Shown here: positions 29,592 to 36,359 of the stretch, one piece after another
Numbering within the stretch: position 1 is the stretch's first letter
Layout of the letters: each line of letters opens with the position of its first letter
Translations under genes and position numbers: made by a program
Origin: an uncultured Dorea sp.
GTDB taxonomy: Bacteria; Bacillota; Clostridia; Lachnospirales; Lachnospiraceae
Direction: 5' to 3'
NCBI GenBank assembly: GCA_934307335.1
Contig: CAKRCL010000001.1
Coordinates: forward strand, 1-64,000
DNA: 64,000 nucleotides
The notes under the pieces: generated by a model
What the model was told of the DNA's origin: nothing
Database searches by the model: none
Seen by the model: only the letters and a program-made list of their open reading frames with translations

Positions 29592-30149
29592 ATGCCAATG
29601 TTGAAAGATGATTACCAGAAGACAGAAAAGATTAATGGTGTAATTTATAATATGTCTCCGGCAGCCAATTTCAGACATGGAATTGTAAATGGAAACATTT
29701 ATGGAAAAGTGAGAGAAGGATTAAAGGACAGTTTATGTCTTGTATTTATGGAAAACCTGGATTATAAATATCACCCGGAGGTAAACGATGACTATGTTGT
29801 ACCTGATATTATGCTTGTCTGTGATCGGAAAGGTCTGAAACATAGTGCATATCATGGAACACCAAAGTTTATTGTAGAGACATTGAGCCCGGCGACAGCA
29901 CTTAGAGACAAGACGGAGAAGAAAGAGATTTATGAGCAGGCAGGAGTAAGTGAATATTGGATTGTCTCACCAAGGGAGCATGCAGTAGAGATATATTATC
30001 TTGAAGAAGGAAAATATAAATTAGTGTACAGTTATATTCTTCAGGAGGATAAGGACGAAAAAGATTATAATGCCGATACGATTATTACCTTGCGGGAGTT
30101 CCCGCATATAGCAATGACATTGGGAGAGATTTTTGATAAGGTAGATTAA
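29592..30149 (+). CDS. Uma2-family (DUF820) PD-(D/E)XK nuclease-fold protein
   Basis: A 185-residue soluble protein of the Uma2 family. The conserved core reads DYVVPDIMLVCDRKG followed by GTPKFIVETLSPATALRDKTEKKEIYEQAGVSEYWIV, giving the Asp...Glu-x... pattern of the nuclease-like fold. Biological function of the family is not established; members are often found near mobile DNA. It is monocistronic here, between copA and a cell-wall carboxypeptidase. Confidence 0.85.
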   Translation: MPMLKDDYQKTEKINGVIYNMSPAANFRHGIVNGNIYGKVREGLKDSLCLVFMENLDYKYHPEVNDDYVVPDIMLVCDRKGLKHSAYHGTPKFIVETLSPATALRDKTEKKEIYEQAGVSEYWIVSPREHAVEIYYLEEGKYKLVYSYILQEDKDEKDYNADTIITLREFPHIAMTLGEIFDKVD

Positions 30150-31770: not shown

Positions 31771-32754
31771 TTACCAGCCATATGTCTTTCCAGGGGCAGC
31801 GTAGTCAGGACCGGTCAGATCTGTTTTGACTTTTTCTTTCAGAACATCGACGTCCCAAGGATTTCCGTCATTAAAGAGCATAGGTCCGCATTGCGGGTAG
31901 GAGTACATCTTTACTTTTCCGGCCGAAGTAATCGAGAAAATGGAACCGTTAATATAAGCACCATCTTCTTCACACAAAACGGTAACAAATGGAGCCATAT
32001 TTGCAGGATCGCCATGGTCGGCGGCTACGGAAGCTAATACTTTAGGATTCGGGGCATGTCCGGCAGCTGAGATTTCACGAATCAGTTTATTGTATTCAAC
32101 CGCATGAGCAGGTGATGCACCTTGTGGACAGATACAGTTGACCGTAATACCGAATTGGTCTAATTCTTTTGAAGTTGCATAGGTAAGTCCGACCATACCA
32201 GCAGTAGAGCAGGAATATCCGGAATTACCCGCAAGACCTACCCAGGCATCGCTTGCAATATTAATGATTCGGCCAAATCCCTGTTCTTTCATATATGGAA
32301 ATGCGAAATGCATAAGAGCAATGGCAGCTTTTGTCCGCTCGGTATTGAAGTGATCCCAGTTTTCTTCTGTCATAGCTTCTACAGAACCAGTGCCGGTTCC
32401 AGCGGCGTTATTGACGATGATATCAATATGTCCCCATTCCCTGATGGCGGTTTCAATCATTTCTTTTGCTGTATTCCAGTCGGAGCAGTCTCCATAAAAT
32501 GGAATGGCTTCCCCGCCCTCTTCTTTAATGAGTGCAGCGGTAGTTTCCGCATCACCTTTTAGCTTGCATAATTCATTCCAGTCTTCTTCCGGCATATCCT
32601 CTTTGCGGAATGTGGAAGCACTGAGTCCGTTTGGTTTCCGATTGTTTGTAATGACTTTTGCGCCTTCGAGGGCTAAACCAACAGCCAGACCTTTTCCGAT
32701 TCCTTGTCCGGAACCTGTAACAATTGCAACTTTTCCTTCCAAATGTTTTTTCAT
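31771..32754 (-). CDS. Short-chain dehydrogenase/reductase with Thr in place of the YxxxK lysine
   Basis: A 327-residue classical-fold SDR. The cofactor motif TGSGQGIG (residues 13-20) and NNAAG (115-119) are intact, and Ser 168 is a candidate for the catalytic serine. The active-site segment is Y180-S-C-S-T184, where the canonical YxxxK lysine should be; the codon is ACT (minus strand, 32203-32205), so this is a real substitution. About 60 C-terminal residues extend beyond the usual fold (NDGNPWDVDVLKEK...). It is the second gene of a minus-strand operon, 39 bp after the PheRS-like gene. Substrate unknown; it may be a non-canonical oxidoreductase or a pseudo-enzyme. Confidence 0.88.
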   Translation of the reverse strand: MKKHLEGKVAIVTGSGQGIGKGLAVGLALEGAKVITNNRKPNGLSASTFRKEDMPEEDWNELCKLKGDAETTAALIKEEGGEAIPFYGDCSDWNTAKEMIETAIREWGHIDIIVNNAAGTGTGSVEAMTEENWDHFNTERTKAAIALMHFAFPYMKEQGFGRIINIASDAWVGLAGNSGYSCSTAGMVGLTYATSKELDQFGITVNCICPQGASPAHAVEYNKLIREISAAGHAPNPKVLASVAADHGDPANMAPFVTVLCEEDGAYINGSIFSITSAGKVKMYSYPQCGPMLFNDGNPWDVDVLKEKVKTDLTGPDYAAPGKTYGW

Positions 32755-32793
32755 AGAATAAACTCCTTTCGATTCATTGATCCGTATTCATTT

Positions 32794-34104
32794 TTATCTT
32801 AATTCCGGAGGAATGAAATTAAATTCTTCCTCGTGTTTCTTTTCAATCGCATTTAACTCCAGATTTGCCATGAAACAGTGGACATGGATGTCGTGATTTT
32901 TTTCTGCAATATCACTGATACCGCCGAAATTGCTTTCCAGATAGTGGAGCTTTTCATCGAGAATAAGCCATGTATCACTTGTGTCGTAAGCAATTGCCAT
33001 ATCCGTAGAAAAGAAGAAATGATTCTGTACTCCAAGGTCAGTAAAGAGATGATCTACCTCTTCTTTAAAAGATTTCGAGCAGACTTCATTTCCATAGCAG
33101 CCAAGAGAGACTGTTATCTTTTCGACAGGGGCATTTCCATTTTTACCTGGAAGGAAAATGTGTGCGATATCGTATATTTTTACAGCTTCGCTTCCAGAGG
33201 CATAGCAGATAGAAAGGGCATCTTCTAATGCCGGAGTCAACACAGTAGGAATGGATGCATGCATTTCAGAACAATCCGCAATAGGGATTCCTTTATTATT
33301 GGCGTCCCAGCTTTCCTGAATCATATTCATTTTCCGGTAACAATTTTCCGGATAAATTTTTTTTGAAATAAACCGGTGGTATCCATAAGATCTCAGCAGA
33401 TTATCTACTTTACAGGCAAAATTATTTCCAACGGCTGCGGTCATATCAGAAAGTGTGGTTAAATTTTCAAATTTATTATTATATAATGCAGCACGGTCTT
33501 GATAGCCGAAGATATGCATGGCAATGGTATCTAAATCCAACGCGAATATCCAGGTGCCGATGTCCGGCGCATCTGTATTTAACAGGGCTCTGGCAAGCCA
33601 TGTCGCAGGGCTGGTACAGCCGATAATGAAAGAATCTGAACCATTTATGGTCACTTTAATATCGTAACTGTTTTTATTTTTCTCAAGTTCGCAGGATGCT
33701 GTAATTCCATATGTAGAGTTGACAATATTTTTCCATAAATATAAATAGTCTTTGAAAGTAATCCCTTTGTCTGCATAAATTCCTTCGATTCGCAGATGGG
33801 CAGGCAGATCTTTATCGGAGTTATCAAAAATATTTCCACAACAAATACATCTGACAGGAAGAGTACCGCGTAAATGATTTAAATGTGTAGAAATTTGTTC
33901 GGGACGGAGCATATAAGCTCCGTTGTCCAGTAATAAAGGCTCAACAGAGAATTCTTCTGTTTCGGAAAAACAGGCAACCTCTTTTTCTGTAGATACAAGT
34001 TCAGGAGCCTCTCCATTATCGAGAAGCGTAAAACCATTTAAAAGAAACCCCTTCTTAAAAGAATCTGCAACTGAGTAAAGAGGGTGTTTGGTAATTGAAT
34101 TCAT
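32794..34104 (-). CDS. Single-chain PheS/PheT-like phenylalanyl-tRNA synthetase paralog with degenerate ATP motifs
   Basis: I read this 436-residue protein as a PheS catalytic-core homolog (about 6-215) joined to a PheT C-terminal-core homolog (about 232-425). Evidence: HPL...V near the start, PVRCICCGNIF...LRIEGIYADKGITFKDY aligning with PheS motif 2 (VKIICPG...QIEGLVVDKNIS), and WIFALDLDTIAMHIFGYQD aligning with motif 3 (GMGVERIAMLKYGIDD); then RSYGYHRFISKK, PALEDALSICYASGSEAVKIYDIAHIF and a terminal LNAI as in PheT. The motif 2 and motif 3 arginines are missing (residues 92-95 IFDN; 191-195 LDTIA), as are anticodon and editing domains. So tRNA charging is unlikely. The start ATG 34104 has GAGGTGA nine bases upstream; a GTG at 34116 overlaps that site. 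Confidence 0.75.
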   Translation of the reverse strand: MNSITKHPLYSVADSFKKGFLLNGFTLLDNGEAPELVSTEKEVACFSETEEFSVEPLLLDNGAYMLRPEQISTHLNHLRGTLPVRCICCGNIFDNSDKDLPAHLRIEGIYADKGITFKDYLYLWKNIVNSTYGITASCELEKNKNSYDIKVTINGSDSFIIGCTSPATWLARALLNTDAPDIGTWIFALDLDTIAMHIFGYQDRAALYNNKFENLTTLSDMTAAVGNNFACKVDNLLRSYGYHRFISKKIYPENCYRKMNMIQESWDANNKGIPIADCSEMHASIPTVLTPALEDALSICYASGSEAVKIYDIAHIFLPGKNGNAPVEKITVSLGCYGNEVCSKSFKEEVDHLFTDLGVQNHFFFSTDMAIAYDTSDTWLILDEKLHYLESNFGGISDIAEKNHDIHVHCFMANLELNAIEKKHEEEFNFIPPELR

Positions 34105-34134
34105 AAATATATTCACCTCACGTTAATATTTGGA

Positions 34135-34163
34135 TTGACAGTAAATGTGGATGGCATTATAAA
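34135..34163 (+). promoter_or_regulatory. Additional plus-strand promoter-like sequence in the divergent region
   Basis: TTGACA (34135-34140), 17-bp spacer, TATAAA (34158-34163). If active it would give the reductase mRNA a leader of about 180 bases running through both operators. Confidence 0.4.
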
Positions 34164-34194
34164 TTGTATTTTTTTAAGTACATAAATTAATTAT

Positions 34195-34223
34195 AATTTA
34201 ATTCAATAAATTGAATATGTCAA
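34195..34223 (-). promoter_or_regulatory. Minus-strand promoter of the PheRS-like/SDR operon with operator 1 in its spacer
   Basis: Read on the minus strand: TTGACA (34223-34218), 17-bp spacer, TAAATT (34200-34195). The palindrome ATTCAAT-AA-ATTGAAT (34201-34216) occupies the spacer almost exactly, a typical repressor position. Confidence 0.6.
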
Positions 34224-34271
34224 TGATAAATGTAAAGAAAATTCTAAAAATAGAAAATAATTATAATATAA

Positions 34272-34309
34272 ATTCAATATATTGACTTTTGTGACGGCGG
34301 ATGTATAAT
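34272..34309 (+). promoter_or_regulatory. Promoter of the enoate-reductase-type gene with operator 2 over its -35
   Basis: TTGACT (34282-34287), 16-bp spacer, TATAAT (34304-34309). A second copy of the palindrome, ATTCAAT-AT-ATTGACT (34272-34287), covers the -35 box. Two matching operators, one per divergent promoter, indicate shared control. Confidence 0.75.
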
Positions 34310-34346
34310 AAAATTGGATGGCATGTGAAAAGGAGGTTCTTTTCAG

Positions 34347-36359
34347 ATGAAAAAAGATTATATGTTCCCATTGCTTATGAAGCCGGGGAAAATGGGAACG
34401 CTTGAACTGGATAATCGAATTATTATGGCGCCTATGGGCTCCCTGAATGGTGGAGTAGATGGATATGTGACGGACCGTGGACTACAGTTTTATAAGGATA
34501 TCGCACAGGGCGGAGTCAGTATGATGGTTGTTGAATGTACAGCAATTGATGATGACCTGAGTATCGGGGAAGACAATCTGATGCGTATGACAGATAATTC
34601 CCATATTACAGGACATGCAAGACTTGTCTCTATTTTACATGATTATGGAGTAAAAGCAGTTTTGCAGTTGTGTCATATCGGACAACAGATTTCACTGGCA
34701 GATAAAAAGGATTCGCTTGGACCGTCAACAATAATTGAAATGCAGGGAGGAATTCAGCCGTTTCCGATTCGCGGTATGACAAAAGCGGAAATAAAAGAAT
34801 GTGAAGAAAATTTTGGCAAGGCAGCGTGGCGTGCCAAGATGGCCGGTTATGATGCTGTTGAGATTCATGGTGCAATCGGACATCTGATCAATATGTTCTG
34901 TTCACCGGCATATAATAAGCGGACAGATGAATATGGCGGAAGCCCGGAGAACAGAGTTCGGTTCTTTAAAGAGATTGTAGAGGCCTGTCAGGAAAAATGT
35001 GGGAAAACTTATCCGATTATTGTCCGGGTATGCGGGGATGAATTTGACGGCGAAGGTGGTCTTACTTTAAAAGAGAGTATTGAACAGGCCAAAATACTTG
35101 AGAGTTTGAAACCGGCTGCTTTGCATCTTGTGGCAGGTTCCAATAACAATGTGCGCACGATTAATTTCCAGTATGACAAGCGCGGAGATTACATAGAGAC
35201 AGCAAAAGCATTTAAAGAGGCAGGAATCAAATTACCGATTATATTAGACGGTGGATTTTCCACTCCGGATCTTGCAGAAAAGGCATTGCAGGAGGGAGTC
35301 TGTGATTTTATTGGAATCGGGCGTCCAATTTTGGCAGATCCGTGTTATGCAAAAAAGGTCAAAGAAAACCGTCCGGAGGATATTACACCGTGTATCCGGT
35401 GCTGTATGGGCTGTGTTGGAACCATTGCAAAATTTAATGCAGCGGTGGGACTTCGCTGTTCCGTGAATCCACAATGTAACATGGGAGGATTCCGCGACTT
35501 AAATCCGATTGAATACAAAAAGAATGTATGTGTAGTCGGAGGAGGCCCGGCAGGTATGGAAGCGGCTCTTATACTGGATAAGCGTGGACATAATGTCACA
35601 CTGTATGAGAAACGCCGTCTTGGCGGAACTATGAACGAGGCTGCATTTGATGAAAAATTAAAAGGTGATATACGGATTCTGATTCATTATTATGAAGAAC
35701 AGCTTCGAAAATCGAGTGTGAAAGTCATTGAAAAAGAGGCTGGAAAAGAAGAGATTCTGGCTGGAAACTATGATGCAGTCGTGCTGGCGACCGGTGCGCC
35801 TGCGATTGATGTGAAAGTAAAAGGTGTTGAGAAAAATCCAAATGTTATGACAGTTTTTGACTATGCATCGCGGGCAGAAACAATCGAACTGGGGGATCAT
35901 GTTCTGATTGTCGGAGGGTGTTTTATGAACCTGGAGATGGCATATGGACTTGCCTTAAAAGGAAAACATGTAACCATTTCGTCCAGAAGAGGAAAAGGCA
36001 TGATGGGAATTATGGAGTTGGGCGATGACAACAGTTCACCGGGACAACAGCGTTTGAAGATTCTTATGAACGAACAGAAAGATAAGATTGAGTGGCTGCT
36101 CGGTAAAAATCTGGTTGAAATTAATGAAAAAGGTGCAATTCTTCAAGATGTAAAAACAAAAGAAAAATGTCAGGTGGAATGTGATAATCTGATTGTCTGC
36201 AGAGGATATCACGGAAGACCGAAACTTTATGATGAGATATATGATGAAGTCGAGGATGTGTACATGGCAGGAGATGCAGTGATGAAACTGCGCTGTACGG
36301 ATAAACGAGTCATAGGAAATGCAATCGAAGACGGATTCGGAGTCGGAAACAGAATATAG
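34347..36359 (+). CDS. Enoate reductase/2,4-dienoyl-CoA reductase-type FMN-FAD-[4Fe-4S] enzyme with altered active site
   Basis: Three-part NAD(P)H-dependent C=C reductase of the family that includes 2-enoate reductase, FadH and BaiCD/BaiH. An N-terminal OYE-like FMN barrel (RIIMAPMGS at the start), a Cys cluster CIRCCMGC...C near residues 350-375 for [4Fe-4S], and a C-terminal FAD/NAD domain (VVGGGPAGMEAALILDKRG) make 670 residues, the normal length. The usual barrel motif HGAHGYL reads HGAIGHL (His 174, Ile 177, His 179): the second His and the proton-donating Tyr are replaced. AAGGAGGT precedes the ATG. It is divergent from the SDR/PheRS-like operon. Substrate cannot be inferred; an aromatic or alicyclic enoate is one possibility. 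Confidence 0.87.
   Translation: MKKDYMFPLLMKPGKMGTLELDNRIIMAPMGSLNGGVDGYVTDRGLQFYKDIAQGGVSMMVVECTAIDDDLSIGEDNLMRMTDNSHITGHARLVSILHDYGVKAVLQLCHIGQQISLADKKDSLGPSTIIEMQGGIQPFPIRGMTKAEIKECEENFGKAAWRAKMAGYDAVEIHGAIGHLINMFCSPAYNKRTDEYGGSPENRVRFFKEIVEACQEKCGKTYPIIVRVCGDEFDGEGGLTLKESIEQAKILESLKPAALHLVAGSNNNVRTINFQYDKRGDYIETAKAFKEAGIKLPIILDGGFSTPDLAEKALQEGVCDFIGIGRPILADPCYAKKVKENRPEDITPCIRCCMGCVGTIAKFNAAVGLRCSVNPQCNMGGFRDLNPIEYKKNVCVVGGGPAGMEAALILDKRGHNVTLYEKRRLGGTMNEAAFDEKLKGDIRILIHYYEEQLRKSSVKVIEKEAGKEEILAGNYDAVVLATGAPAIDVKVKGVEKNPNVMTVFDYASRAETIELGDHVLIVGGCFMNLEMAYGLALKGKHVTISSRRGKGMMGIMELGDDNSSPGQQRLKILMNEQKDKIEWLLGKNLVEINEKGAILQDVKTKEKCQVECDNLIVCRGYHGRPKLYDEIYDEVEDVYMAGDAVMKLRCTDKRVIGNAIEDGFGVGNRI

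Follow-up and report, generated by a model that had tools for sequence, protein, structure and literature searches.

Among the described relatives of the genes considered here, the bilirubin reductase BilR also has a deviant active-site loop (HGDR), and altering its Asp-Arg pair reduced activity, as reported in PMC10769871; therefore, changes in this loop can mark substrate class. In short-chain dehydrogenases/reductases (SDRs), YxxxN is a recognized motif of the ‘complex’ type (PMC3144213, PMC10864336). We analyzed a 64,000-nucleotide stretch of DNA (hereafter, the window) from an uncultured Dorea sp. (Lachnospiraceae; GCA_934307335.1, contig CAKRCL010000001.1, positions 1 to 64,000), in which linked genes encode an SDR, a phenylalanyl-tRNA synthetase (PheRS)-like fusion protein, an iron–sulfur (Fe-S) flavoenzyme and a helix-turn-helix (HTH) protein, as seen in a check of the open reading frames (ORFs) (Table 1). 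The original prediction, made from the letters of the window alone, had described a divergent three-gene locus of enzyme paralogs lacking canonical active-site residues; the divergent genes are real and the three ORFs are full length, with the ends that it gave, but the fourth linked gene, for the HTH protein, had been overlooked. Annotations among the matches listed do not go beyond SDR family/3-oxoacyl reductase, FAD-dependent/OYE-type oxidoreductase and hypothetical protein, and none of the NCBIfam models shown reaches its cut-off (25 of 202 shown for the SDR and 25 of 71 for the flavoenzyme; none was found for the fusion). Together, these genes look like an undescribed chemical pathway.

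Scanning of 84,980 genomes, one per species, with the PheRS-like protein, which has 70 homologs with 31–93% identity among the matches listed, yielded 19 loci in Lachnospiraceae, Erysipelotrichaceae, Coriobacteriia and other lineages of two phyla. The flavoenzyme gene adjoins the PheRS-like gene, or is one gene off, in all 19 loci, and the SDR gene is linked in all 15 loci whose contig reaches far enough, the contigs of the other four (L004, L011, L015 and L017) stopping within the flavoenzyme gene. A homolog of the HTH protein is present in 9 of the 19 loci and in three of three further cassette loci; in nine others, the regulator is replaced by a gene of one other cluster, of the AraC family in the three members scanned, and L015 is too short to show which regulator it has. 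Genome searches with the flavoenzyme gave 11 distinct places above 1000 bits, 10 of them in a cassette. Seven of these 10 were already among the loci of the PheRS-like scan (G1261 being presumably the same as L014), and the four new places are L026, L027 and L134, each with all four genes, and one exception, L135. The cassette is rare and patchily distributed: within one family, the PheRS-like gene was found in 1 of 299 genomes, the one at the center of the sample, and flavoenzyme matches above 1000 bits occurred in 4 of 346 genomes (two known before), 1 of 398 (the center), 3 of 244 and 2 of 397 (the center included in both), the 299-genome and 397-genome samples overlapping. A plasmid-borne cassette was rejected because the PheRS-like protein had no match in 72,556 plasmid records (E 1e-10), the flavoenzyme had only distant matches, in 16 records (all <60% identity; ten listed at 28–34%), and the window DNA had no match among plasmid records. 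A virus-borne origin was rejected as well, given that a scan of viral contigs for the SDR, with two peptide patterns, returned 79 relatives at only 23–36% identity.

The unusual residues had been taken as a sign of a dedicated pathway rather than decay, and this view is borne out by the linkage across two phyla, the subfamily-wide nature of the departures, low ratios of nonsynonymous to synonymous substitution (dN/dS) and correlated gene distances. Site conservation across the homologous loci indicates that the odd residues mark conserved subfamilies, and no cassette combined canonical residues with unlinked genes, L135 being a partial exception. Among the unsaturated pairs, which were four of seven per gene and included neither of the two containing the window, dN/dS was 0.006–0.037 for the SDR, 0.031–0.059 for the flavoenzyme and 0.036–0.149 for the PheRS-like gene, with no relaxed selection there; thus, where measurable, the cassette genes of these relatives appear to be under purifying selection. 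Decay was rejected on the grounds of this selection and the subfamily-wide residue changes. Pairwise distances correlate between the genes (r 0.65–0.89, Mantel p ≤0.0005, 10–19 loci). In the PheRS-like tree, the window groups with L001 and L002, which are Lachnospiraceae-type loci (support 99/98). The Lachnospiraceae loci L005–L008 group with Erysipelotrichaceae, away from the group of the window, and L003 and L134 group with Actinomycetota in the flavoenzyme tree. The phylum label requires only one change in each of the two trees, and horizontal transfer of the cassette appears likely. Overall, we are highly confident that the sequences represent a dedicated, conserved pathway cassette.

The general features of the SDR superfamily (Rossmann TGxxxGxG, Ser and Tyr) are present in the cassette SDR, and those of classical SDRs (YxxxK and the tetrad Asn) are absent. 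The cofactor motif TGSGQGIG is intact, as predicted, alongside Ser168 and Tyr180, and the window protein has Arg140 and Thr184. In the window sequence and the best 120 of 6782 SDR matches (121 sequences, also the basis of the counts that follow), Tyr180 and Ser168 are invariant and the Lys column of YxxxK (position 184) never contains Lys (Asn in 66, Thr in 55), residue 169 being Asp in 108 and Glu in 13. The tetrad-Asn column (position 140) holds Arg in 68 and Lys in 52, with one gap, that is, a basic residue in 120 of the 120 sequences with a letter. The two columns combine as Arg+Thr in 54 sequences (including the window), Lys+Asn in 52, Arg+Asn in 14 and gap+Thr in one. Hence the predicted change from Lys to Thr in YxxxK is real, with Thr184 in place and Tyr180 kept, but it does not amount to loss of the catalytic base; because the basic residue has relocated to position 140, the SDR is probably active with a swapped tetrad. 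By alignment, the solved polyketide ketoreductase AmphB has Lys/Asn at columns 140/184 (its Ser column is offset in that alignment) and 7tzp has Asn/Lys. The Arg+Thr form of the window lies one step beyond the published YxxxN motif. Among SDRs of the same genomes taken as controls, the tetrad-Asn column is Asn in one and Asp in the other, the only informative column in the two of eight loci that passed a filter requiring YxxxK. The Pfam KR model, matched by 20 of 20 cassette SDRs, is not discriminating, as ordinary SDRs of the same genomes match it better.

Following the NNR (residues 37–39) of strand 2, the cassette SDRs carry a conserved insertion of ~25 residues (Pro55 in 120, Gly67 in 119 and Asp68 in 120 of 121), located where the mycofactocin-linked SDRs of TIGR03971 carry a loop that buries NAD, according to PMC5264612. 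The SDR could thus be a nicotinoprotein with a captive cofactor and with the flavoenzyme or another carrier as its redox partner, and the alignment of TIGR03971 in a single stretch (5–276), when 17 of the 25 models shown are split in two, points the same way. However, TIGR03971 scores 115 bits against a cut-off of 300, no mycofactocin gene was recognized among the neighbors scanned, and the MFE-2 enzyme 2et6 also fills part of the insertion, all of which makes a nicotinoprotein unlikely.

The flavoenzyme displays the Fe-S flavoenzyme features, namely, the OYE domain, the four-Cys motif and the FAD/NAD(P) domain, with 14 residues before the last Cys compared with 11–13 in the text of a review (PMC11574389). 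In the window and the best 120 of 4029 flavoenzyme matches, Cys349, Cys352, Cys356 and Cys371 are invariant, in agreement with the predicted integrity of the cofactor motif, and so are His174, Ile177 and His179 of the loop HGAIGHL (residues 174–180; subfamily signature HGAIxHL). Three relatives with 34–36% identity carry HGAHGYL or HAAHGYL. The predicted shift from HGAHGYL to HGAIGHL is genuine, although only its Tyr-to-His part is marked; the His-to-Ile change alone is unremarkable, as Escherichia coli FadH has Glu in the column of the second His (and Tyr in column 179) and NCR has Val there. His179 might act as the proton donor. The solved structure nearest by sequence is that of NCR (6qkg), which we take to be 2-naphthoyl-CoA reductase.

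The original prediction had also pointed to BaiCD as a relative of this enzyme, and a system of the BaiCD/BilR kind, reducing bile acids, steroids or bilirubin, would have the same fused flavoenzyme architecture, with both families among the NCBIfam relatives. Yet the scores lie far under the cut-offs (329 bits against 750 for the long form of bilirubin reductase and 308 against 825 for BaiCD), so that the proposed relationship to BaiCD finds no support; to our knowledge, neither system has a PheRS-like gene, and no bai-type gene was recognized among the neighbors scanned. Furthermore, the window has HGAI and lacks the HGDR that BilR needs, according to PMC10769871. Such a system is highly improbable, and bile acids are not supported as the substrate.

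The PheRS-like fusion consists of a PheS-like core (residues ~1–222) followed by a core resembling the catalytic-like module (CLM) of PheT (~223–436), with conserved YxKMNMIQExWDxNN and LPTVLTPALE; PF01409 (5.8e-8) and PF17759 (2.1e-6) are both above the gathering score, and no further Pfam domain was detected in the 440 residues, in particular no B3/B4 editing, tRNA-binding or anticodon-binding domain. The ATG start (MNSITKHPL, as in the relatives) is more likely than the upstream GTG. When the family profile was compared with solved structures, its N-terminal half matched a PheS chain at 7e-15, and the C-terminal half matched PylRS chains (5e-4 and weaker) and no PheT chain at E ≤0.01; the latter half aligns with the PheT CLM cores of the host genomes. 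Of two alignments, A1 comprised 36 of the 70 homologs and A2 all 70. The predicted loss of the Arg residues of motifs 2 and 3 is evident across most of the family: the motif 2 position is Asp in 62 and Arg in 2 of the 69 rows that have a residue there; at the motif 3 position, which is not conserved, only 5 of 71 rows have Arg. Accordingly, the protein no longer looks able to function as a tRNA ligase. Ten of the 12 host genomes also have a separate PheS-like or PheT-like match; in G001 and G009, the fusion was the sole match.

Conservation is concentrated in the PheT-like half, which has all 21 of the invariant columns in 71 rows, including the polar set Tyr256, Asp267, Asn269, Asn270, Tyr373, Tyr388, Asn392 and Glu416; removal of four gapped rows (67 kept) leaves 3 invariant columns in the PheS half compared with 21. 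The mean entropy is 2.03 in the N-terminal half and 1.27 in the C-terminal half (Mann–Whitney p 1.4e-15). Pairwise comparison of four host genomes, for which the PheS and PheT segments were cut by fixed lengths measured from the C-terminal end, gave higher identity for the housekeeping PheS core than for the PheT CLM in six of six pairs (0.66 versus 0.65 in one, nearly equal); in the fusion of the same four genomes, the C-terminal half is the more identical one in six of six pairs. Mainly because of this reversal, together with the conservation pattern, we place the function in the PheT-like half, and the sequence data fit its conservation for catalysis and for binding or contact alike. We tentatively propose that the PheT-like pseudo-catalytic core may have taken over the working role of the PheS-like core and would have a new, non-tRNA enzyme activity in an undescribed reductive pathway of the gut.

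Class II synthetase folds have been reused as ligases, and the PheRS-like protein might still activate a carboxylic acid ahead of reduction, as an amino-acid or aryl-acid adenylate-forming enzyme or a ligase. Such activity would be compatible with the PheS ‘EG’ motif, whose Glu is retained in 66 of the 69 rows that have a residue there, but given the replaced arginines of motifs 2 and 3 and the lack of an alternative ATP signature in the CLM half, as judged by eye, we regard it as quite improbable. Alternatively, the protein might be a non-catalytic allosteric or sensory subunit, as HisZ is for HisG, and control one of the two redox enzymes by binding a pathway metabolite or an amino acid. This would fit the loss of most of these arginines and the position of the gene beside redox genes in all 19 loci, and it has a precedent in HisZ, a HisRS paralog without adenylation activity, as described in PMC9437257. 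The invariant polar set nevertheless looks richer than a pure sensor requires, and we rate this particular arrangement as rather unlikely, the general choice between an enzyme and a sensor being about even.

Considering all these observations, we favor, with moderate confidence, the view that a conserved cassette of patchy distribution encodes a dedicated pathway for the reduction of a small molecule, with the PheRS-fold protein in a non-redox or sensing step. In this scheme, the Fe-S flavoenzyme would reduce an activated C=C bond with hydride that NAD(P)H delivers via FAD, the 4Fe-4S cluster and FMN, and His174 and His179 would perform the substrate-activating or protonating work of the FadH Tyr. 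The SDR would act on a carbonyl or alcohol of the same molecule through Ser168, Tyr180, Arg140 and Thr184, probably with NADP(H). The fusion would carry its function in the PheT-like half, next to a degenerate PheS-like half, and its most likely task, a non-redox one, would be to bind or convert an intermediate resembling an amino acid or an arylpropanoid. Expression would be set by the divergent promoter, under the control of the HTH regulator or, in other lineages, of the AraC-type one.

Several points weigh against this scheme. The flavoenzyme of L135, a paralog with 54% identity, adjoins a different SDR, with canonical YxxxK, and has no PheRS-like gene next to it. Judging by their titles, the loci come from metagenome-assembled genomes or uncultured records, and shared descent alone would also yield correlated gene distances. 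Conservation of the CLM half could reflect an interface rather than an active site. The probable preference of the SDR for NADP(H) is deduced from the conserved NNR after strand 2. The regulatory role of the HTH protein is our inference, from a protein whose HTH_3 score is under the Pfam cut-off, and no recurring operon-embedded transporter was found in the loci examined.

The L135 flavoenzyme (HGAIDHL) is the second one in genome G004, which also contains L005; the SDR gene follows it, and its product has an additional N-terminal region of ~110 residues.

The divergent promoter region of the window contains two near-identical palindromes (Table 1), candidates for the operator of the HTH regulator. 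The pattern TTCAATWWATTGAM, written after the sites had been seen, has 2 sites in the 64-kb window compared with 0.01 expected from shuffling; a looser pattern allowing one mismatch gave 8 matches against 3.3 expected, and 6 of 100 shuffles reached 8. By eye, a related AT-rich motif occurs in many relatives. Promoter-like sites in the region number 21, with 18.7 expected by chance.

In all eight loci of the coriobacterial type that were examined, the PheRS-like gene has a leader that could fold into a helix with GCAGG/CCTGC as its invariant core and with changes that compensate each other. The leader rows are related by descent, so that the following permutation figures are not strict probabilities: 34 of 40320 permutations were equally good for this helix, and 106 of 40320 for pairing of the subsequent stretch with the ribosome-binding site. 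The covariation score of the helix is 0.179, compared with 0.068 when shuffled (0/500); further pair types are no better than shuffled (374/500), and the outermost pair is unpaired in five of the eight loci. The pairing with the ribosome-binding site comprises 7–10 pairs in five of eight loci; it falls to 5 in L012 and also in L027, where a later segment provides them, and the best helix of L010 lies elsewhere; L010 and L012 are below their mismatched means. The two helices interleave in a pseudoknot-like manner. In six genomes searched, the leader model gave one strong copy per genome, at the PheRS-like gene, and three weak matches elsewhere; the model search of the window gave none. No Rfam family was found in the window and the leader matches none, the eight loci giving only tRNA-Sec. 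The coriobacterial leader could be a riboswitch or an autoregulatory leader.

In L027, the tRNA-Sec adjoins a long ORF with a GTPase-like start (GHIDHGKS), by eye probably SelB, and the host may use selenocysteine.

The neighbor scan covered 39 chosen ORFs, mostly flanking. A MATE-type cluster flanks 4 of the 19 loci, ~1.4–3.7 kb from the nearest cassette gene; Pfam confirms MatE for two of the four, L008 and L010. In L009, an MFS transporter, a GltD-like FAD protein and an NAD-kinase-like gene surround the SDR gene, in line with NADP(H) use. In L010, a radical SAM gene of the coproporphyrinogen-III-oxidase family, above the NCBIfam cut-off, lies 68 bp downstream of the PheRS-like gene and is followed by a gene for a 428-aa protein with no Pfam or NCBIfam match. 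Another radical SAM gene lies near L018, and its best matches, under the cut-off, are to haem-type models; these two genes would be compatible with a haem link. A mycofactocin link was rejected because the L018 gene, with a score of 53, falls short of the MftC cut-off (265). Upstream of the cassette, the window has a Uma2-family ORF.

Table 1. Positions of the cassette genes, candidate regulatory elements and neighboring features (in the window unless a locus is given)
Feature	Position	Strand	Remarks
SDR oxidoreductase, 327 aa	31771-32754	-	Pfam adh_short
PheRS-like fusion, 436 aa from ATG 34104 (440 aa from GTG 34116)	32794-34104/34116	-	PF01409 then PF17759
Fe-S flavoenzyme, OYE/2,4-dienoyl-CoA reductase class, 670 aa	34347-36359	+	Oxidored_FMN + Pyr_redox_2 (Pfam)
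Candidate HTH_3/XRE-like regulator, 343 aa	36500-37531	-	HTH_3 19.5 bits, under Pfam cut-off 23
Palindrome TTCAATAAATTGAA, candidate operator	34202-34215	.	Divergent promoter region
Second near-identical palindrome TTCAATATATTGAC	34273-34286	.	Overlaps -35 box of flavoenzyme promoter
TTGACT-16-TATAAT, promoter-like, before flavoenzyme	34282-34309	+	11/12 consensus matches, best of 21
TTGACA-17-TAAATT, promoter-like, before PheRS-like/SDR pair	34195-34223	-	10/12; consensus match only
Uma2-family ORF	29592-30149		
Candidate leader RNA	L004 2771-2853; L010 3974-4063		
Candidate leader RNA	L012 4438-4518; L017 1694-1780		
Candidate leader RNA	L018 9912-10000; L019 9919-10009		
Candidate leader RNA	L026 12273-12357; L027 12268-12349		
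MATE-type cluster	L005 15103-16551; L007 8626-10008; L008 3282-4715; L010 8175-10304		
Second flavoenzyme and canonical SDR	L135 7335-10498		
MFS, GltD-like and NAD-kinase-like genes around SDR	L009 3163-7985		
Radical SAM gene and 428-aa protein	L010 5443-8171		
tRNA-Sec and GTPase-like ORF	L027 5595-7651		

A bacterial PheRS paralog of the cassette kind, or such a gene set, was not found in the literature covered, from which subscription journals are mostly absent, and the words tRNA, synthetase and short-chain dehydrogenase do not appear in the main text of a survey of flavoenzyme gene clusters (PMC7371122). The cassette provides one subfamily with a fixed partner set, residue signatures for recognition and a pathway that can be tested. 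Should the PheT-like half prove to be the working one, a function would have been taken over by a non-catalytic synthetase domain. The cassette SDR, in turn, suggests that a swap of the ketoreductase type is found in a free-standing metabolic SDR as well.

In comparison with known systems, the cassette SDR shares with the ketoreductases of polyketide synthases (‘complex’ YxxxN SDRs) a basic residue at the tetrad-Asn column, Asn or Thr at the Lys column and the retained Tyr, but it is free-standing and single-domain, scores best with classical adh_short, and has Thr at the Lys column in 55 of 121 sequences and Arg at the tetrad-Asn column in 68 of 120. The flavoenzyme has the same one-chain organization as FadH (1ps9), NCR, BilR, BaiCD and daidzein reductase, with an OYE barrel containing FMN, a four-Cys cluster motif and an FAD/NAD(P) domain, and differs from them in His replacing the catalytic Tyr in 121 of 121 sequences, the HGAIxHL signature and the last Cys spacing of 14. 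In the equol pathway, the partner enzyme, dihydrodaidzein reductase, is an SDR, and we know of no PheRS-like gene there. That pathway resembles the cassette in having a fused OYE reductase (daidzein reductase) in gut anaerobes (PMC11574389). HisZ, too, is a class II synthetase core that serves metabolism and has no ligase activity (PMC9437257), whereas the cassette protein has another parent synthetase and redox-enzyme partners. With PheRS itself, the cassette protein shares a recognizable PheS core and PheT CLM, in the same order, but it is fused in one 436-aa chain, with the ATP-binding arginines mostly gone and the conservation shifted to the CLM half.

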